The notes under the pieces were generated by a model. It had not been told where the DNA came from. It made no database searches and saw only the letters and a program-made list of their open reading frames with translations. A DNA stretch of 58,514 nt from an uncultured Lachnospiraceae bacterium (GTDB lineage Bacteria; Bacillota; Clostridia; Lachnospirales; Lachnospiraceae): NCBI GenBank assembly GCA_946403625.1, contig CAMJAP010000008.1, positions 1-58,514 on the forward strand. The letters are read 5' to 3'. This document shows positions 5,115-14,917 of the stretch, one piece after another. How positions within the stretch are numbered: the stretch's first letter is position 1; every line of letters begins with the position of its first letter. The position numbers and the translations under genes are program-made.

Positions 5115-7445
5115 ATGATACAAGATACGGTATTGGAGAATCACGTAAGTGAACAATCTGATCGCAGGGATGAGATCCGACTCACAAGAAGGAACCGTAT
5201 CATTACGGTGCTCGTTGTGATCTTTTTTGCGAGCATCATTTTTCTTTATTATCATATGCTCTACGAAGCCAAACGGAGCAGTATCATCCGGGAGGGCGAA
5301 GTCAGCGCGGAGGAATCCGCGGACGAATTGGAGCAGTATCTTTCCACCAATATCGATTCCATAAAACTCTCTGCCTATACCCTCGATGATATGATCGAAA
5401 AAGGAAGCAGCGAGCAGGAGATTCAGAGTTTTCTTGTAGGACAGTCAACGGCGATCAAAAGTGCCGTGATGGAGAATGCAACCGGTCTTTACGGCTATAT
5501 CAACGGGCGGTTTTACAGCGGAACCAATTGGAATCCGCCGGAAGGGTATAACGCGACCAAACGCCCTTGGTATACCAGACCGATGGAAAATCCGGGCGAG
5601 ATCACGATCCTGGATCCATACGTGGATGTGCAATCCGGAAACACCATGCTGGCGCTTGGCAAAACACTTTCGGACGGTGTCAGTGTGATCTCGGTGGACG
5701 TTTCTCTGGACCGGGTACAGAATCTGATGGAAGAAGCGGTGGAGCGCGGCTATTCGGACATCGAAATGGTGCTGAATGAAAAAGGTATTGTGATAGCCCA
5801 CTCCGATCCTGCGGAGAACGGAAAAAACTATTACGAGGAAACGGATACCCTGGGTTCGAATATCATTTATAACCTGGAGTGTCCGGATCGGAATAATTAT
5901 GAGTTCCGTTTTCAGGGGGAGCATTATATTGTTTATGTTGCGCATATTCAGGATAAATGGCATTGCATCTCGGTTCGAAATGTCAGCCGCGTATTCGGGA
6001 TCCTGAATATGATCCTGTTTGCTACGATCGGCGTGGTGATCCTGCTCGGTGCGATCATCAGCATCATTATCCACAGAACCAATCATTATTATCATATGTC
6101 TGCCATGGCGATCGCTGCCAGCGAAGCCAAATCTTCCTTTTTGTCCAATATGTCCCATGAGATAAGGACGCCCATCAACGCGATCCTGGGGATGAATGAA
6201 ATGATCCTGCGGGAAAGCAGGGAGCGTGCGATACTGACCTATGCGCAGAACATCCGGAATGCCGGGAGAAACCTGATGGAACTGGTCAACGGGATTTTGG
6301 ATTTCTCCAGGATCGAAGCCGGAGAAGTGGATCTGCACAGTTCGGACCGGGATGCGTTGGAGACGACAGAGCAAGCGAATGCAGACAGCCAAACGATCCG
6401 CTATCGGGAACGTTTCAATGCACCGGATGCCCATATTCTTGTGGTGGATGATAATCCTATGAACCTGATCGTTTTTCAGAGTCTGGTCAAAAAGACCGGC
6501 GTAAAGATCGATACGGCGGAAAACGGGGACGAGGGAATTGACCTTTGTAAAAAACGCAGATACGACATTATTTTCCTGGATCATATGATGCCGGGGAAAG
6601 ACGGTATCGAAACCCTGGCGGCGATACGAAATACGGCGCAGGCATTTAATAAAGGGACACCATGCATCTGCCTTACCGCAAACGCCATCAACGGATCCCG
6701 GGAAAAATATCTGGCCGCCGGTTTTGACGAATACCTTTCCAAACCCATTGATCCGGCGCGCCTGGAAGAGCTGATGCTGTTCTACCTGCCGCAGGATAAG
6801 GTGGTAAAATACGAAACCGCGGAAAAGACACCGCTGCGACCGATCCCGGCAGATCTGGAACCGCTTAGCGCCAGCGGCATGGATGTCATCGGCGGTATCG
6901 AAAACAGCGGCGGCGAAAAAGAATACCGCGTACTGCTCAAGATGTTTTACGATTCGGCGGAAGCAAAGGCAAAAGAACTGGAAGAATCCTATGCGGCATC
7001 GGATTTTGCAAACTATACCGTTCGTGTTCATGCGATGAAGAGCTCCGCAAAGATCATCGGGGCTGCGGCGTTCGGGGAAGAGGCCCAGAACCTGGAAGAT
7101 GCCGGGAAGAGCGGCGATGTCGAATATATCCGGGAGCATCATGAAAAGTTTTTGAAAGATCTGTTCTATACCGCCGATCTGCTGAACGGAATGTTCCGCA
7201 GCGGCGCGGAAAAAGAAGAAAAACAGCTGGCGGATCCGGTACTGATGAAGGAAGTATTTTCGGAACTGCTGGCGGCATCGGAGGAGATGGATTGCGATCT
7301 TTTGGAGAGCATCTTTGACGAAATGGACAGCTATCGTATTCCGGCGCGGGACAAAACGCTGTATGAAAAGATACGCAGTGCGGTGAAAAATTACGATTAT
7401 GAGACGATTGTTACACTAATACGAAAAGGAGAGGAACAGTTATGA
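5115..7445 (+). CDS. Cache-HisKA-REC-HPt sensor protein lacking the HATPase domain
   Basis: Domain order (776 residues from ATG 5115; a GTG at 5088 adds nine): transmembrane helix about 29-49, extracytoplasmic Cache-like sensor about 52-290, second helix about 295-319, HisKA dimerisation helix pair about 340-402 with phospho-acceptor His348 in the motif MSHEIRTP, receiver from about 440 (VVDDN, phospho-acceptor Asp489 in DHMMPG), then an HPt-like domain with His639 (HAMKSSAKIIG) and a helical tail. Only about 38 residues separate the HisKA end (FSRIEAGE) from the receiver, so the whole ATP-binding HATPase domain with its N and G boxes is absent. It therefore cannot autophosphorylate and should depend on another kinase. 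It overlaps the receiver-GGDEF gene by 4 bases. The deletion is in frame and the flanks are intact, so this is an architecture, not an obvious frameshift. Confidence 0.88.
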   Translation: MIQDTVLENHVSEQSDRRDEIRLTRRNRIITVLVVIFFASIIFLYYHMLYEAKRSSIIREGEVSAEESADELEQYLSTNIDSIKLSAYTLDDMIEKGSSEQEIQSFLVGQSTAIKSAVMENATGLYGYINGRFYSGTNWNPPEGYNATKRPWYTRPMENPGEITILDPYVDVQSGNTMLALGKTLSDGVSVISVDVSLDRVQNLMEEAVERGYSDIEMVLNEKGIVIAHSDPAENGKNYYEETDTLGSNIIYNLECPDRNNYEFRFQGEHYIVYVAHIQDKWHCISVRNVSRVFGILNMILFATIGVVILLGAIISIIIHRTNHYYHMSAMAIAASEAKSSFLSNMSHEIRTPINAILGMNEMILRESRERAILTYAQNIRNAGRNLMELVNGILDFSRIEAGEVDLHSSDRDALETTEQANADSQTIRYRERFNAPDAHILVVDDNPMNLIVFQSLVKKTGVKIDTAENGDEGIDLCKKRRYDIIFLDHMMPGKDGIETLAAIRNTAQAFNKGTPCICLTANAINGSREKYLAAGFDEYLSKPIDPARLEELMLFYLPQDKVVKYETAEKTPLRPIPADLEPLSASGMDVIGGIENSGGEKEYRVLLKMFYDSAEAKAKELEESYAASDFANYTVRVHAMKSSAKIIGAAAFGEEAQNLEDAGKSGDVEYIREHHEKFLKDLFYTADLLNGMFRSGAEKEEKQLADPVLMKEVFSELLAASEEMDCDLLESIFDEMDSYRIPARDKTLYEKIRSAVKNYDYETIVTLIRKGEEQL

Positions 7446-8785
7446 GTGAATGGGTCGTTATTGTCGATGATGAAGCGCTGAGCCTGACCAATGCCAAAAA
7501 CATTCTGAGTGCGGAAGGCATGAAGATCTCATGTCTTCGTTCCGGCCAGGATCTACTCAAATTTACGGAAAAGAACCAGCCGGACCTGATCCTTTTGGAT
7601 ATTATCATGCCGGAGATGGACGGATTTGCCACCTTCCGGGAACTGCGTAAGAAGGAAGAACAGATCGGACGTATTCCGACACCGGTGATCTTTCTGACCG
7701 GCGATGGAGATACGGAATCGGAGCGTCGCGGCCTGACGGAAGGCGCGTCGGATTTTATCAAAAAACCGTTTAACCGGGAGATCCTGATCAGTCGTATTCA
7801 GAAAACCCTGCAGAACCGTAAGACTTTGGAATCTCTGTTAGAGAGAGCGTCTACGGATAAACTGACCGGTTTTCTCAACAAGAGCAGCGGCACGGAAAAA
7901 ATATCAAAGCTTTGTGAAAACGAAGACGGTGCGCTTATGATCGTGGATCTGGACAGTTTCAAGTCGGTCAATGATATTTACGGGCACGATATGGGCGATA
8001 TGGTGCTGCAGGGCTTTGCCAGGATCCTTAAGGAGAATCTGCGGGAAAAAGACGTGCTGAGCCGAATCGGCGGCGATGAGTTTTTGATCTTTGCCAGAGG
8101 TCTGCTTGCCGCGGACAATGTGAAGAACCTGATCCGTCGTTTGAATCATTTGCTCGATAAAGAAGCGGAACGGCTTTTGGGTGAAGATTACGGGATCCCT
8201 CTGGGCATCTCGGCCGGCGTGGTCTTTGTTCCGGATATGGGACGTGATTATAAAATGCTGTTTCAGTTTGCGGACAGTTCCCTGTATCGCGTAAAACAAA
8301 ACGGAAAGCACGCTTGCGAAGTTTATTCTCCGCTGCGGATCGCGGATAATGTCGGAGATGATCTGGAAAACGAAATGGCACGGATCACACATATGGTGGA
8401 AGAACGCGGGATCGGCCGGGGGGCTTTGCTGTTGGGCCAGGAAGCTTTTTCATGCAATTACCGGTTTATCATGCGCTTTGCCAAACGAAATCGTTTGAAG
8501 GCCAGCCGCTTGCTGTTTGTGATCGATGCGACGACGGAGGATCTGGATCTCAACACCGCTATGATCAGTTTCGGAGAGGTGATGAAGCAGTCGCTGCGAA
8601 AATATGACATTATCTTCCGCAGCCGTCACAACAGTTATTATCTGCTGCTGCCGGAATTGAACGAAAGCGATGTGATGGCGGTAGTAGAGAGGATCCGGCA
8701 GGCATGGAAAGAGACCAAATACGCGGATTGTACACAGATCCGGCATTTTTCCGAATCTTTCTCATTTGCCTTTGATGAAGTTTAA
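7442..8785 (+). CDS. Receiver-GGDEF response regulator (diguanylate cyclase) with degenerate second GGDEF
   Basis: A 447-residue protein. The N-terminal receiver has VVIVDDE and phospho-acceptor Asp53 (LLDIIMPEMDG). The GGDEF domain carries an intact active site GGDEF at about residues 210-214, preceded at the right distance by REKD, a match to the RxxD product-inhibition site; it should make cyclic-di-GMP from two GTP. A third region (about 305-447) looks like a second, degenerate GGDEF fold, with the spacing RKYD...R followed by SRHNSYY where GGDEF would be, so it is probably non-catalytic and regulatory. It has a strong SD (AAAAGGAGAGG) and sits between two defective kinases, making it the likely output of the phosphorelay. 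Confidence 0.9.
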   Translation: MSEWVVIVDDEALSLTNAKNILSAEGMKISCLRSGQDLLKFTEKNQPDLILLDIIMPEMDGFATFRELRKKEEQIGRIPTPVIFLTGDGDTESERRGLTEGASDFIKKPFNREILISRIQKTLQNRKTLESLLERASTDKLTGFLNKSSGTEKISKLCENEDGALMIVDLDSFKSVNDIYGHDMGDMVLQGFARILKENLREKDVLSRIGGDEFLIFARGLLAADNVKNLIRRLNHLLDKEAERLLGEDYGIPLGISAGVVFVPDMGRDYKMLFQFADSSLYRVKQNGKHACEVYSPLRIADNVGDDLENEMARITHMVEERGIGRGALLLGQEAFSCNYRFIMRFAKRNRLKASRLLFVIDATTEDLDLNTAMISFGEVMKQSLRKYDIIFRSRHNSYYLLLPELNESDVMAVVERIRQAWKETKYADCTQIRHFSESFSFAFDEV

Positions 8786-8803
8786 CCAACAACAGGGAGT
8801 TCG

Positions 8804-10450
8804 ATGAAGAAGAAAAACAATGAAATCTTTATTGTACTGATGATCCTTGTGTCCGGGATCGGGCTTTGTGCGGAAAGTTTTCTCTTTCATTGGGAATTTT
8901 GGGTGCCGCCCCTGATCCTTCTGGCGATGATCGGCATTTTGGTATTGTATGTTTTGAAACATACGTGGTATTCGCTGCGCAAAACATGCTATTTTTTGTT
9001 TACGTTTCTGGCGTTGTTCTACCATGGAGTTCACAAGGAAAACATGATCGATATCGGACTGGCGGTCTGTTTTTCGTTTGTCACGTTTACCCTGCTGGAC
9101 AGTCTGTTGATGCTGCGGATTTTTTATACGGAGTATATTGTTTTAATCGGGATCCGTATTTTTATCCTTACGGATTGGGAGATCGTACCGGCGGATGCGG
9201 CAACGGTTGCCGGGATCCTTTTTTCTGTGCTGGTGGTCAGTCTGACCTACTGGATGTCTGCCAGAATGCTTCGGGAACGAAAAGAATTACTGCAATTGCA
9301 GGAGCAAAATGAGAAAAAAAACGAAGCGGCAGATGCGGATACGGAAAATTTCCTGATCAATATTTCGCAGGAACTGCGTACACCGGTCAATGTCATCAAC
9401 GGAATGTCGGAGATCCTGATCGGCCGTCATGGCGGTGCGGAGGCAGATGCGATCCGCGGTGCGGGGATACGTCTGGCGCAACAACTGGAAGATCTCGGGG
9501 ATTATATCGAATGTAAGCGGCAAAAAGTACTTCCGCAGGAAGCGGAGTATATGTGCACATCGCTGGTCAACGATGTGGTGAACGGTTTTCGGTCCATGGA
9601 GAATACGACAAAACAGGAACTGGTGATGGATCTGGATCCGATGGTGCCGAGCAGACTGTACGGTGATGCCCGTAAGATTCACAAGATCTTTCGGCATCTT
9701 TTGGAGAATGCCGTAAAATATACGGAAATCGGCGGTATTTATATTCGTGTGTTCGCGGAAGAAAAAGAATACGGAGTGAATCTGTGTATTGAGATGACGG
9801 ATACCGGAATCGGCATGGACCGCCGTTTGGTCGCAGCCGTTTCGGAAGGAAAATATCCGGGGATGAAACAGAAAAAACGCAACAGCGGTATCGGACTGGG
9901 GCTGTTTATTGTTTATGGATTCGTACATCGTATGGGCGGATTTGTAAAGATCGAAAGTGAAAAAAACGTCGGAACCACCGTGCGGGTAACCCTTCCGCAG
10001 AAAGTAGTCGATAAGAGTCCGTGTCTGGCGCTGAATCACAGTTTTAACGGGGATCTGATCTTCCATGTGCGCCAGGATAAATATACCACGCCGGCAGTAC
10101 GTGATTTTTACCGTTCCATGGCGACCAATCTGGCAACCGGCATTCATGTTTCTCTGTATCCGGCACAGACGGTGCAGGAGATCGAAAAACTCCGCGAAAA
10201 ACTCCATGTTGCAATGATCTTTATGGGGCAGGAAGAGTATGAGGACAATCCTGCGTATTTTAACGCGCTGAGTAAAATGGGGATTGCCGTTGCGGTATCG
10301 GCGGCACCGGGCTTTCGCGCCGATCCGGACAGCACGGTTCATATTATGCCCAAGCCGTTGTATGCATATCACGTGATCAAAGCATTGAACGAAGGGCGAA
10401 CCTCCATGGAAACACCGGCCTCCGTAAGCGGGAAAGGAGGGAATGCATAA
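8804..10450 (+). CDS. Membrane histidine-kinase-like protein with Gln in place of phospho-acceptor His and a pseudo-receiver
   Basis: A 548-residue protein with about six transmembrane helices in residues 8-160 and a coiled coil at about 160-180. The HisKA-like motif reads ISQELRTP: Gln189 stands where the phosphorylated histidine belongs. The ATPase domain looks intact: N box with Asn302 (LLENAVKY), G1 box from Asp333 (DTGIGM) and G2 box GIGLGL. The last 130 residues resemble a receiver (a KPLYAYHVIKALN end like the KP motif) but lack the acidic pair and the acceptor aspartate, so it is a pseudo-receiver. It can probably bind ATP but not phosphorylate itself; a trans-acting kinase or purely allosteric role is inferred. 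It lies 18 bases after the GGDEF gene and abuts the next one. Confidence 0.88.
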   Translation: MKKKNNEIFIVLMILVSGIGLCAESFLFHWEFWVPPLILLAMIGILVLYVLKHTWYSLRKTCYFLFTFLALFYHGVHKENMIDIGLAVCFSFVTFTLLDSLLMLRIFYTEYIVLIGIRIFILTDWEIVPADAATVAGILFSVLVVSLTYWMSARMLRERKELLQLQEQNEKKNEAADADTENFLINISQELRTPVNVINGMSEILIGRHGGAEADAIRGAGIRLAQQLEDLGDYIECKRQKVLPQEAEYMCTSLVNDVVNGFRSMENTTKQELVMDLDPMVPSRLYGDARKIHKIFRHLLENAVKYTEIGGIYIRVFAEEKEYGVNLCIEMTDTGIGMDRRLVAAVSEGKYPGMKQKKRNSGIGLGLFIVYGFVHRMGGFVKIESEKNVGTTVRVTLPQKVVDKSPCLALNHSFNGDLIFHVRQDKYTTPAVRDFYRSMATNLATGIHVSLYPAQTVQEIEKLREKLHVAMIFMGQEEYEDNPAYFNALSKMGIAVAVSAAPGFRADPDSTVHIMPKPLYAYHVIKALNEGRTSMETPASVSGKGGNA

Positions 10451-13400
10451 ATGAATCGAAAAAGCCTTTTCCGCAGCATTTATGAAGCCATCCTTGATCC
10501 GGATCGGGAATTTACGGAGCGTATTTATCTGGGGCTTTCCCTGGTTTCTGAGATCATGGCCCTGATCGCGCTCATCGGGGACCTCATCATTGAGGAAAAT
10601 CCGGTGGAGACATGCACGATCTTCGGCATCATGGTCCTGATCCTGGTATTGATGGTGATCGGTTTTCTGAAAGACAAAGTGCGGGAAGCAAAGCGGGTCA
10701 CCGTTCTTGTGCTGGTCTTTTTGATCAATCCCGTGCTGTTCTTTTTCGGCGGTGGACTCCATGGCGGCGGCGTGATCTGGATCATCTTTACCTTTACCTA
10801 TGTCGGACTGGTCATGACCGGTAAATGGCGTACACTGATGATCATCTTGACCTTTTTGATCACGCTGATCTGTTATCTGGTCGGATGGTTTTTCCCGGAA
10901 ATGGTTTTGGATCATACCCCGGAAGCGTTTTTTATCGATTCCTTTGTGTCACTGGTTGTTGTAGGTATCATCTGTTTTGTAATGACCTGGCTGCAACGCC
11001 GGTTGTATAACTACGAATATGAGCGTGCGCAAAAAGCAGTGGAGACGGCGGAAGAACTGTCGAAGGCACAGAACCGTTTCTTCTCGCGTATGAGTCACGA
11101 GATCCGTACACCGATCAATTCGATCCTGGGCCTCAATGAACTGATCCTGCGTGAAGAAAATCTTTCCGAGGAGATCCTGAGGGATGCATCCGGGATCCAG
11201 GGATCCGGCAAGATGCTTTTGTCCCTCATCAACGATATTCTGGATTTCTCTCGCATCGAAGCCGGAAGCATGGAGATCATTTCGGTTGATTACCGGACCG
11301 AGCAGATGCTTTCGGAGATCATTAATATGTTCCGGGAACGGGCAAATGAAAAAGGCCTGGCTTTTCGTGTGACGATCGATCCGCGTTTGCCGGTAATGCT
11401 GTACGGCGACGAAATGCGCATCAAACAGATCCTGATCAATCTGCTCAACAATGCGGTCAAGTATACCCAGGAAGGGAGCGTGGAACTGCATGTCGAGCGA
11501 ATGGAAAAGGACGAAAAGAATGTGCAGTTATCCATTTCCGTAATGGATACCGGTATGGGGATTCGAAAGGAATCCATACCGCATTTGTTTGATGCTTTCA
11601 TAAGAGCTGATGAAGAAAAGAACCACTACATCGAAGGTACGGGGCTGGGACTGTCGATCGTAAAACAGCTGGTGGAACTGATGGGCGGCAGCGTTGCGGT
11701 GAACAGTATCTATGGCACGGGTTCCACCTTTACGGTGGTGCTGGCGCAGGGCATTTCCGATCCGGCGCAGATCGGCGAGCTGAATATCCGTCAGGATACG
11801 CTGCAGCAAAAGGTTTACGAATGCAGTTTCCGCGCAAACGATGTCCGCATCCTGATCGTCGATGACAACGAGATGAACCTGGAGGTGGAAGGAAAACTGT
11901 TGAAGGATACCGGCATTGCAGTGGATAAGGCCGAATCCGGCAAGAAGGCGCTGGAACTGACCCTGCAGTATCATTATGATGTGATCCTGATGGACCATAT
12001 GATGCCGGAAATGGACGGGATCGAGTGTCTGGAGAATATCCGAAATCAGACCGGCGGTTTGAACCGTGCTACACCGGTTGTGGTTCTTACGGCCAATGCG
12101 GGAAGCGACAACCGTGAGTTGTATAACCGTGCCGGGTTTGACGGCTATATGGTCAAACCGGTATCCGGCGAAATGCTGGAAAATACCCTGGTCAAATATA
12201 TTTCGGCGGATAAACTGACGATCAACAGTAACAAGATGATGACCAAGAACGAAAACATCAATACGACCGCCGGATATTCCGGAAAACTGCCGGTCATCAT
12301 TACCGCAACGAGTATGTGTGATCTGCCGGTGGCGTTGATCCGTAAACTGCATCTGCCCATTTTGCCGTACAAGATCCGCACGGAAGAAGGCGAATTCCAG
12401 GATGGCGTGCAGATGAGCGCGGATGAGCTGATCCGCTACATTAACACCGGCAAGAATGCCAGTTCCATGCATCCGACGGAAGAAGAATACATGGCCTTTT
12501 TCTCCGAGGCATTGAAACGGGCACATCACGTCATCCATATTGCACTGACCAACAGTATGAGCGAGGATTATGAGATCGCGTCGGAAGCGGCCAAGTCCTT
12601 TGACAATGTGACGGTATTCAATTCGGAGTGCCTGTCTTCGGCTACCGGTATCATGGTGCTGATCGCGCACAAACTGGTACAGATGAATCTGTCCGTGGAA
12701 GACATTCTTGCCGAACTGGAAACGGTGAAACAACGGATGCGCTGTTCCTTTGTGATCGATACTACCGAATATATGCGGCACAGGGAATTGGTCAGCCCCC
12801 AGATCGATGCGATCGCCAGAAGTTTAAATCTGCATCCGTATCTGCATCTGAAAAATAATCGCTCCGTGATCGGCGGTATCTGGATCGGAAAACGGGAACG
12901 TGCCTATCGAAAGTATATTGAAAAGGTGTTTCCGGCCAATCGGGATCCGGATACGGAGCTGGTATTTATCACCTATGTGGACGTTCCGGTGGATACCCTC
13001 AACTGGATCAAGGATGAGATCTCCAAATACGAGCATTTTGCGCATGTGATCATCAAGCAGGCGTCTGCGGCAATCTCCTCCAACTGCGGCCCGGGAACTT
13101 TCGGCATTCTGTATTTTGACAAATCCGACAAGTCCTATAACCTTTCCTCGTTCCTCGAAGACGAAGCGATGTTCTGGGAAGAAGAACTGACTGAGGAGGT
13201 ACCGGAGGAAGAAACGTTACAGGAGGCGGATTGGATGCCGGAGGAAGACGAAACTGCAACGGAAGAAACACAAGCGTCTGCGGAATCGTACGGACTTGCG
13301 CCTGCGGAGGCGTCCGGGCGCAATGCCAAACGGCGGAAGGAAAACGAGAAGGAGCCGCAGGATGGAGAAGAGGCCGATCCTGCGGCGGAAAACCGTATCA

Positions 13401-13774
13401 TGATCCTTTCGTATCAATACAGCGTGGTCGTAAAAGGCATGGAACGCAAGCTGAAAAATGACGGCTACGAGGTGGTTTCCTATGCGGAAGACCTGAAATA
13501 CCATGCGAACGAACAGGCCGGCAAAACGGCGGTGCAGCTGATCTATCTGCCGAAGGACCTCTTGGAAGATACCGCAAAACAGGCGATTTTACAGGATCTG
13601 GTACAGATCGCATCGGAGCAGGAACAGCGTCTGCTGCTGATCGGAGAGGCTGAGCAGTACGAAAAAGTGGCGGAAGAACTGCCGGCCGTAAAGGAGATCA
13701 AATGGATGGATCGGCCTGTCGATCTGGACCGGCTTGCGCGGACGGTTTCCGAAATGCGAAAAAGCGGCAAATAA
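10451..13774 (+). CDS. Hybrid histidine kinase fused to a DegV (fatty-acid-binding) domain
   Basis: A 1107-residue protein. Order: about five to six membrane helices (about 20-185), HisKA with His216 (MSHEIRTP), a complete HATPase domain (LLNNAVKY, DTGMGI, GTGLGLS), receiver at about 457-580 with Asp515 (MDHMMPEMDG), then from about 610 to 890 a DegV-type domain. The DegV signs are the start PVIITATSMCDLP, the DGVQMSADEL stretch, SSMHPTEEEY in the place of the usual TSQP segment, the FVIDTTEYMRH block, and the closing NCGPGTFGILYF that matches the family HTGPGALGLAF. A long acidic linker (about 895-975) leads to a C-terminal pseudo-receiver without phospho-acceptor. DegV proteins bind fatty acids, so sensing of acyl chains is a plausible inference. 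It is the only complete kinase of the operon and may feed the two incomplete ones. Confidence 0.87.
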   Translation: MNRKSLFRSIYEAILDPDREFTERIYLGLSLVSEIMALIALIGDLIIEENPVETCTIFGIMVLILVLMVIGFLKDKVREAKRVTVLVLVFLINPVLFFFGGGLHGGGVIWIIFTFTYVGLVMTGKWRTLMIILTFLITLICYLVGWFFPEMVLDHTPEAFFIDSFVSLVVVGIICFVMTWLQRRLYNYEYERAQKAVETAEELSKAQNRFFSRMSHEIRTPINSILGLNELILREENLSEEILRDASGIQGSGKMLLSLINDILDFSRIEAGSMEIISVDYRTEQMLSEIINMFRERANEKGLAFRVTIDPRLPVMLYGDEMRIKQILINLLNNAVKYTQEGSVELHVERMEKDEKNVQLSISVMDTGMGIRKESIPHLFDAFIRADEEKNHYIEGTGLGLSIVKQLVELMGGSVAVNSIYGTGSTFTVVLAQGISDPAQIGELNIRQDTLQQKVYECSFRANDVRILIVDDNEMNLEVEGKLLKDTGIAVDKAESGKKALELTLQYHYDVILMDHMMPEMDGIECLENIRNQTGGLNRATPVVVLTANAGSDNRELYNRAGFDGYMVKPVSGEMLENTLVKYISADKLTINSNKMMTKNENINTTAGYSGKLPVIITATSMCDLPVALIRKLHLPILPYKIRTEEGEFQDGVQMSADELIRYINTGKNASSMHPTEEEYMAFFSEALKRAHHVIHIALTNSMSEDYEIASEAAKSFDNVTVFNSECLSSATGIMVLIAHKLVQMNLSVEDILAELETVKQRMRCSFVIDTTEYMRHRELVSPQIDAIARSLNLHPYLHLKNNRSVIGGIWIGKRERAYRKYIEKVFPANRDPDTELVFITYVDVPVDTLNWIKDEISKYEHFAHVIIKQASAAISSNCGPGTFGILYFDKSDKSYNLSSFLEDEAMFWEEELTEEVPEEETLQEADWMPEEDETATEETQASAESYGLAPAEASGRNAKRRKENEKEPQDGEEADPAAENRIMILSYQYSVVVKGMERKLKNDGYEVVSYAEDLKYHANEQAGKTAVQLIYLPKDLLEDTAKQAILQDLVQIASEQEQRLLLIGEAEQYEKVAEELPAVKEIKWMDRPVDLDRLARTVSEMRKSGK

Positions 13775-13879: not shown

Positions 13880-14917
13880 ATGGAAAAGTGTATGCAGCTG
13901 ATCCGGGAACTGCCCACGCCGCAGGCGCTGAAGCAGCAGTTTCCGCTGGATCCTTCCGTAGCACCGATCAAGGAAAAAAGGGATGCGGAGATCGCAGATA
14001 TCTTCAGCGGAAAGAGTAATAAATTCCTGCTCATCATCGGTCCGTGTTCGGCGGACAATGAGGATGCGGTATTGGATTATATGAACCGTCTGGCCAGAGT
14101 ATATCAGAAGATCAAGGACAAGATCTTTATCATTCCGCGAGTATATACCAACAAGCCGCGTACCACGGGGCTCGGCTACAAGGGAATGTTGCACCAGCCG
14201 GATCCGGAAGGCAAAGAGGATATGCTGGCCGGCATTATCGCCATCCGTGAAATGCATGCACGTGTGGTTAGGGAAACCGGATTTACCTGTGCGGAAGAGA
14301 TGCTGTATCCGGAAAATCACAGTTATTTATCCGACCTTTTGTCCTATGTAGCGGTCGGAGCACGTTCCGTAGAGGATCAGCAGCACCGCATCGTTGCCAG
14401 CGGCATCGGTATCCCGGCCGGTATGAAGAATCCGACCAGCGGTGATATCTCGGTTATGATGAATTCCATCATTGCGGCACAGAACCCGCAGAAGTTTGTA
14501 TACCGCGGCTGGGAAGTCAAGACTACGGGTAATCCGTATGCCCACGCGATCCTGCGCGGCTACGTAAACCAGTTCGGACAGAGCATTGCAAACTATCACT
14601 ATGAGGACTTGAGACGTCTTTTGGATGCTTACGAAGAGCATAAGGATCTGGTGAATCCGGCGGTGATCATTGACTGTAATCATTCCAACTCCGGAAAGAA
14701 ATACCTGGAGCAGATCCGCATCAGCCGTGATGTAATGCACAGCCGTCATGTGAATCCGGAGATCCGCAGCCTGGTAAAGGGCCTGATGATCGAAAGCTAC
14801 ATCGAAGACGGCGCACAGAAGATCGGCGAGGGTATATACGGCAAATCGATCACCGATCCATGCCTGGGCTGGGAAAAGACGGAACAGCTGTTGTATGAAT
14901 TGGCAGAGCTTGCTTAA
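13880..14917 (+). CDS. aroF: 3-deoxy-7-phosphoheptulonate (DAHP) synthase, AroF/G/H type
   Basis: This enzyme condenses phosphoenolpyruvate with erythrose 4-phosphate, the first step of the shikimate pathway. The 345-residue length and the motifs LLIIGPCSADN, KPRTTGLGYKG, GIPAGMKNPTSGD and DCNHSNSGKK identify the type I alpha class related to E. coli AroF/G/H. The paralogue letter cannot be assigned from sequence alone. The start has AAAGGAG upstream. It is the promoter-proximal gene of a long unit that continues into proline and DNA-repair genes; aroB lies elsewhere in the window. Confidence 0.93.
   Translation: MEKCMQLIRELPTPQALKQQFPLDPSVAPIKEKRDAEIADIFSGKSNKFLLIIGPCSADNEDAVLDYMNRLARVYQKIKDKIFIIPRVYTNKPRTTGLGYKGMLHQPDPEGKEDMLAGIIAIREMHARVVRETGFTCAEEMLYPENHSYLSDLLSYVAVGARSVEDQQHRIVASGIGIPAGMKNPTSGDISVMMNSIIAAQNPQKFVYRGWEVKTTGNPYAHAILRGYVNQFGQSIANYHYEDLRRLLDAYEEHKDLVNPAVIIDCNHSNSGKKYLEQIRISRDVMHSRHVNPEIRSLVKGLMIESYIEDGAQKIGEGIYGKSITDPCLGWEKTEQLLYELAELA

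Follow-up and report, generated by a model that had tools for sequence, protein, structure and literature searches.

Apparent repeated loss of the ATPase domain from a HisKA-receiver-HPt protein within one type of multi-kinase operon

Among proteins with a HisKA domain, a few per cent have no HATPase domain (1556 of 42417 by the counts given in PMC3591291), and a class of 'possible incomplete histidine kinase' is named in PMC5847659. Such proteins are mostly without known partners. Systems to which they can be compared include CheA3/CheA4 of Rhodobacter sphaeroides, described as a split kinase (PMC3591291), RetS/GacS of Pseudomonas aeruginosa (PMC5992135) and RcsD, whose role in the Rcs relay is covered in PMC12189002. 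Here we analyze a four-gene locus in a 58,514-nucleotide stretch of DNA (the window; contig CAMJAP010000008.1 of assembly GCA_946403625.1) from an uncultured Lachnospiraceae bacterium. Its first gene encodes protein A, a HisKA protein with its phospho-acceptor His and no ATPase domain, whose relatives lack this domain recurrently.

The four genes lie on the + strand at 5115-7445 (A), 7442-8785 (a REC-GGDEF protein), 8804-10450 (B) and 10451-13774 (C). The genes of A and REC-GGDEF overlap by 4 bases, those of REC-GGDEF and B are separated by 18, and those of B and C abut with a gap of 0. The A and B genes are 1.4 kb apart and likely share one operon, and the best explanation of the four genes (5115-13774) is a single multi-kinase relay to a diguanylate cyclase.

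Protein A (776 amino acids) comprises a Cache-like sensor, with Pfam matches below the cut-off, followed by HisKA (residues 338-403 by Pfam, 6126-6323; His348 codon at 6156-6158), a receiver (Response_reg, residues 441-552, 6435-6770; Asp489) and an HPt domain (Hpt, residues 607-673, 6933-7133; His639), which is the only HPt among the four genes. Where the ATPase domain is expected, Pfam and AlphaFold2 leave a linker of 37 residues (404-440, 6324-6434) between the HisKA and receiver matches. The original prediction, read from the sequence, had named the same three sites and about 38 residues in place of the ATPase domain, and had placed the REC-GGDEF gene between A and B and a complete kinase from 10451 onwards, all of which is borne out. 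The profile alignment it proposed as a check for a hidden ATPase domain found none: no Pfam match to HATPase_c occurs in A at E-values up to 0.1. In the AlphaFold2 model (mean predicted local distance difference test score, pLDDT, 80.1) residues 404-428 score below 50 and the linker contains no domain. A hidden ATPase is ruled out by the two results together, and that claim stands. Among the 22 HisKA matches in the genome of the window, that of A alone has no HATPase_c match within ~1 kb. A thus falls within the definition of an incomplete histidine kinase, having HisKA with the phospho-acceptor His and no HATPase.

We compared the locus with its relatives, most of them metagenome assemblies, by scanning contigs for relatives of B and taking the best 80 of 119 loci; identical sequences were counted once, and domains were assigned with profiles made from the window's own domains. 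These loci are from records titled Butyrivibrio, Lachnospiraceae or other, mostly rumen, sources; relatives of B also occur in genomes of the same genus. A further search for the family, in which two candidates were scored per genome in 397 genomes and which yields no frequency, added the loci L192, L193 and L194. In these relatives A is usually sensor-HisKA-ATPase-receiver-HPt, B is membrane-HisKA-ATPase-pseudo-receiver-receiver and C is membrane-HisKA-ATPase-receiver-DegV-HPt; the usual set also contains the REC-GGDEF gene and a small Pseu-REC gene (D), which often lies farther downstream. The set is incomplete at some loci, many stretches having neither A nor REC-GGDEF. Against the usual set the window is without the ATPase of A, the His and the receiver of B, and the HPt of C.

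The ATPase domain is absent from 14 of 50 distinct A-type kinases, defined by HisKA, receiver and HPt without DegV and without the membrane region of B (window, L040, L100, L110, L115, L118, L129, L141, L146, L156, L159, L192, L193, L194). A genes that were cut or odd (L043/L113, L105, L137 and L151) were kept out of the tree. On the maximum-likelihood tree of the 50 proteins, computed with the ATPase columns removed, absence requires seven changes (7-8 on bootstrap trees), and well supported branches force at least five changes in ATPase presence. Repeated loss and not gain is the simpler reading of a tree that gives no direction, and the ATPase-less lineages have different residual linkers. 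In the same loci the domain is absent from none of 88 C proteins and from one of 99 B proteins, a fragment, which argues against a general assembly fault. The Cache-like sensor is present in 13 of the 14 ATPase-less proteins. The fourteenth (L194:7068-9725, - strand) has an iron-hydrogenase-like sensor composed of 4Fe-4S and iron-only-hydrogenase-like domains (Fe_hyd_lg_C, E 4.7e-26). A REC-GGDEF gene lies within 300 bp of 12/14 ATPase-less A genes versus 14/36 A genes with the ATPase domain (Fisher p 0.004, uncorrected for kinship).

The phosphorelay sites are retained throughout this group, whose median pairwise identity is 54%. All 14 proteins keep the Ser-His and Arg-Thr-Pro of the H-box, the acidic residue following the His (13 Glu, 1 Asp), the HExxT phosphatase motif, the two acidic residues, Asp and Lys of the receiver (together with Thr in 13 and Ser in one), and the His and Lys of HPt. 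The end of HisKA leading to the ATPase domain, by comparison, has drifted. In the closest pair, L141/L146, the ratio of non-synonymous to synonymous substitution rates (dN/dS) is 0.04 in the H-box, with one non-synonymous difference, and 0.44 in the linker; other pairs are near or past saturation and of little use here, dS being saturated (L129/L141) or, in most domains, infinite (L115/L159). Conservation of the relay sites alongside drift on the ATPase side indicates that the His remains in use together with the chain that follows it. Among these sequences, A without its ATPase but with the His-Asp-His chain intact and a REC-GGDEF gene next to it is a recurrent state under selection. In two loci the position of A immediately ahead of B is occupied by a smaller protein: one of 483 amino acids with sensor and HPt (L151:699-2150), the other of 203 amino acids with HPt alone (L102:9393-10004). 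These appear to be further steps of reduction.

A probably receives phosphate in trans from a neighbouring kinase. According to PMC3510030, HisKA kinases need the acidic residue beside the His for the kinase but not for the phosphatase reaction, and the Thr/Asn for the latter but not for the former. A keeps both the acidic residue and the Thr, and this speaks for continued phosphorylation of its His, in trans. C is most likely the best donor candidate, since it is complete, occurs in nearly all ATPase-less operons and has a HisKA domain closer to that of A than B has (53% identity between A and C in the window, 29% between A and B). Of the 13 other ATPase-less operons, 12 contain a C with HisKA and ATPase: 11 by direct count, and L040, whose C is cut at a contig end. 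In the thirteenth, L193, an intact A-type kinase overlaps the ATPase-less A by 4 bases, and the 14 kb contig carries neither B nor C. We put the probability that His348 of A is phosphorylated by C or another A/C-type kinase at roughly 0.45.

Under this reading A would be a relay station fed in trans. C would autophosphorylate and would also phosphorylate His348, most likely in mixed A:C dimers formed through the similar HisKA domains, and phosphate would then pass from His348 to Asp489, to His639 and on to Asp53 of REC-GGDEF. Since C in the window has no HPt of its own, its receiver may also hand phosphate directly to His639. The sensor of A would gate a relay powered by another protein. B is most likely a pseudokinase; it would modulate C or A through direct contact, or by means of the Thr in its HisKA motif. 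The likely path would run from C through A and REC-GGDEF to cyclic-di-GMP (c-di-GMP). More tentatively, the ATPase may have been shed repeatedly within one operon type to give an obligate trans-phosphorylated sensor-relay, with the window as its most divided form: ATP use and the first His would belong to C, the second His-Asp-HPt chain to A, regulation to B with its missing His and output to REC-GGDEF, leaving none of the proteins able to complete the relay alone.

Several observations weigh against phosphorylation of His348 by C. We detected no signal of HisKA co-evolution within operons for A with C or A with B (mean percentiles 0.32 and 0.36), and this line of evidence was set aside, pairs from the same operon being no more alike than pairs across operons. 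The L151 and L102 proteins show that the operon type can work through HPt entry without the His of A, and a role in dimer formation or as a phosphatase may be what preserves the HisKA motifs. Nine other HPt matches and many other kinases are present in the genome of the window, so partners need not be encoded in the operon. Because B served as the query for most loci, its occurrence next to A partly reflects how they were chosen. Gln in B is known from a single sequence, and the intact N and G boxes of B would suit a donor too.

This last possibility, a split kinase resembling CheA3/CheA4 in which B lends its ATPase to phosphorylate His348, was the centre of the original prediction, which proposed a split-kinase relay to c-di-GMP. 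Its description of B holds by Pfam and by sequence: B has an ATPase domain (HATPase_c, residues 287-400, 9662-10003, E 1.2e-19) with intact N and G boxes and has Gln189 (codon 9368-9370) in the motif ISQELRTP at the acceptor position. Retention of 33 of 35 near-invariant ATPase columns and the likely common operon of the two nearby genes would fit a donor. The other two columns, however, lie in the ATP lid, the HisKA domains of A and B share the low identity given above, the contig of L193 has no B, and the defects of A and B do not co-occur. Among the 13 other ATPase-less operons, 12 have a B on the stretch retrieved, and its acceptor is His in each; the window alone combines the two defects, so that a conserved complementary pair is rejected. 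Trans feeding of A survives from that proposal as likely; B as the complementary donor is improbable. The alternative raised with it, in which the kinase at 10451 feeds the relay and B acts as an allosteric partner, fits better. The changes in B point the same way. Across 98 distinct B proteins the acceptor is His in 97 and Gln in the window only; 6/16 conserved columns of the ATP lid and 7/37 of HisKA are changed in the window, each matched by as many changes in 1/94 others, whereas in the rest of the ATPase domain 3/59 are changed, as many as in 19/94 others. Clustering of changes in HisKA and the ATP lid, together with loss of the receiver, suggests that B of the window is most likely a pseudokinase and not an ATP donor. 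The Gln189 and receiver losses look like a separate one-off, apart from the loss in A.

A possible but doubtful account, modelled on RetS and RcsD, holds that His348 receives no phosphate from ATP: the receiver or HPt of A would be loaded directly by C (or, in relatives, by B), HPt would pass phosphate to REC-GGDEF, and HisKA would serve as a dimer part and sensor-gated phosphatase. The universal HExxT motif, the L151 and L102 proteins, and the fact that relatives' B and the window's C have a receiver and no HPt and so could both use the HPt of A all fit it, as does RetS itself, described in PMC5992135 as lacking autophosphorylation, receiving GacS phosphate on its receiver and acting as a phosphatase. 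The acidic residue after the His, dispensable for phosphatase activity according to PMC3510030, is nevertheless kept in every ATPase-less A. The same residue tells against a drain, in which A would withdraw phosphate from REC-GGDEF through HPt and receiver and release it as a sensor-gated brake on c-di-GMP; the retained HPt, receiver and phosphatase motif and the frequent adjacency to REC-GGDEF agree with such a role, but the His and its acidic neighbour would be expected to drift and do not, and we consider it improbable as well. Finally, the kinases might be broken in one strain or by misassembly and have no function. The Gln and receiver loss of B, each seen once, speak for this, as do the prevalence of metagenome assemblies and the collapsed-looking B-C junction of L130; operons with both kinases intact, which the original prediction had named as refuting it through strain-specific decay, do exist (e.g. 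L035, L036, L085 and L089). Yet the loss in A is not mere decay: 14 distinct A sequences, whose linkers differ, have open frames, the active sites of A are kept, the ATPase is almost never missing from B or C, and the window's B keeps 72 of 78 near-invariant columns. Decay or misassembly is unlikely to explain A, and as an account of the locus it is very improbable.

Phosphorylation of His348 in trans, most likely by C, is the reading we favour, and the other proteins of the locus can be set beside it. B (548 amino acids; model mean pLDDT 76.9) consists of a membrane region, HisKA, ATPase and pseudo-receiver. Its HisKA match is weak, with E 1.5e-5 and 25.4 bits, slightly below the Pfam cut-off, and 29.3 bits, above the cut-off, in the genome-wide search. 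The absence of the relatives' C-terminal receiver had escaped the original prediction, as had the pseudo-receiver at the end of C. This receiver is missing in 6/99 B rows: the window, L111, L137 and L136 (at or near contig ends), L130 and the fragment L135. In L130 (9542-12630) B breaks off at the start of its receiver, and a partial DegV-HPt frame comes next, as if the DNA from the receiver of B to that of C had been deleted or had collapsed in the assembly.

C (1107 amino acids), the proposed phosphate source, has a membrane region, HisKA, ATPase, receiver and DegV, and ends in a pseudo-receiver (13394-13747, + strand) in place of HPt. This pseudo-receiver resembles that of the separate gene D of relatives (39% identity). 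HPt ends the protein in 80 of the 88 distinct C proteins of the loci, hybrid kinases with DegV behind the receiver. The eight without it are the window, L094, L133 and L158 (contig ends), L192 (stretch cut), L043 and L159, which have a separate HPt frame nearby, and L122, where the row is a second copy of C at the start of its stretch. Downstream of C the window carries a DAHP synthase gene (13880-14917), at the position of which L085 has a sodium:alanine symporter followed by gene D; by this comparison the end of the locus is rearranged in the window.

REC-GGDEF is a response regulator and the probable output; Asp53 was read from its sequence. Around residues 373-427 it has another GGDEF-like match, partial and scoring 37 bits, that relatives share.

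In the A family the loss recurs in a fixed gene context, where intact sister genes serve as controls and candidate donors adjoin. It makes testable whether the His of such a protein is phosphorylated by another kinase or whether the protein acts as an HPt carrier or phosphatase only, and also how several sensors are connected to a single diguanylate cyclase in a bacterium.

Judged by their titles and the openings of their abstracts, none of the papers listed in our searches treats this operon, and we met no description there of a gene that, within a single operon type, has lost its ATPase repeatedly while retaining the relay sites. Like A, RcsD is a sensor protein in the membrane with an HPt and no kinase activity, and it has lost the acceptor His of HisKA; A differs in keeping His348 and a receiver. 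CheA3/CheA4, as described in PMC3591291, resemble A in that a phospho-His protein without a catalytic domain needs a partner for ATP and in bringing sensory input to a response regulator; they are of CheA and not HisKA type and form a fixed pair with complementary losses. A is an acceptor protein without a catalytic domain, but no partner shows a loss to match its recurrent one, B lacking the His in the window only and having a changed ATP lid, and A carries a receiver and HPt. In RetS/GacS, as presented in PMC5992135, a complete kinase within a network of several kinases is likewise the target of a hybrid partner unable to use ATP; A similarly has no working ATPase and retains HExxT, although the ATPase of RetS is degenerate and that of A absent, and A has an HPt through which it could pass phosphate on. 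RetS chains also rank first by Foldseek E-value for B. ShkA of Caulobacter, as described in PMC7010744, shares the HisKA-ATPase-pseudo-receiver fold with B, the best stretch of the sequence match covering the kinase core only; B of the window lacks the acceptor His and second receiver that its relatives have. The Caulobacter pseudokinase DivL (PMC12189002) belongs to an unrelated operon. Among incomplete histidine kinases, which share with A a HisKA domain with conserved His and no ATPase domain (PMC5847659), A stands out as a defined gene in a defined operon, with repeated loss, a receiver and HPt behind HisKA, and REC-GGDEF adjoining. HisKA proteins without an ATPase domain are already known; the repeated loss in a fixed operon setting with the relay sites kept appears to be the new part.

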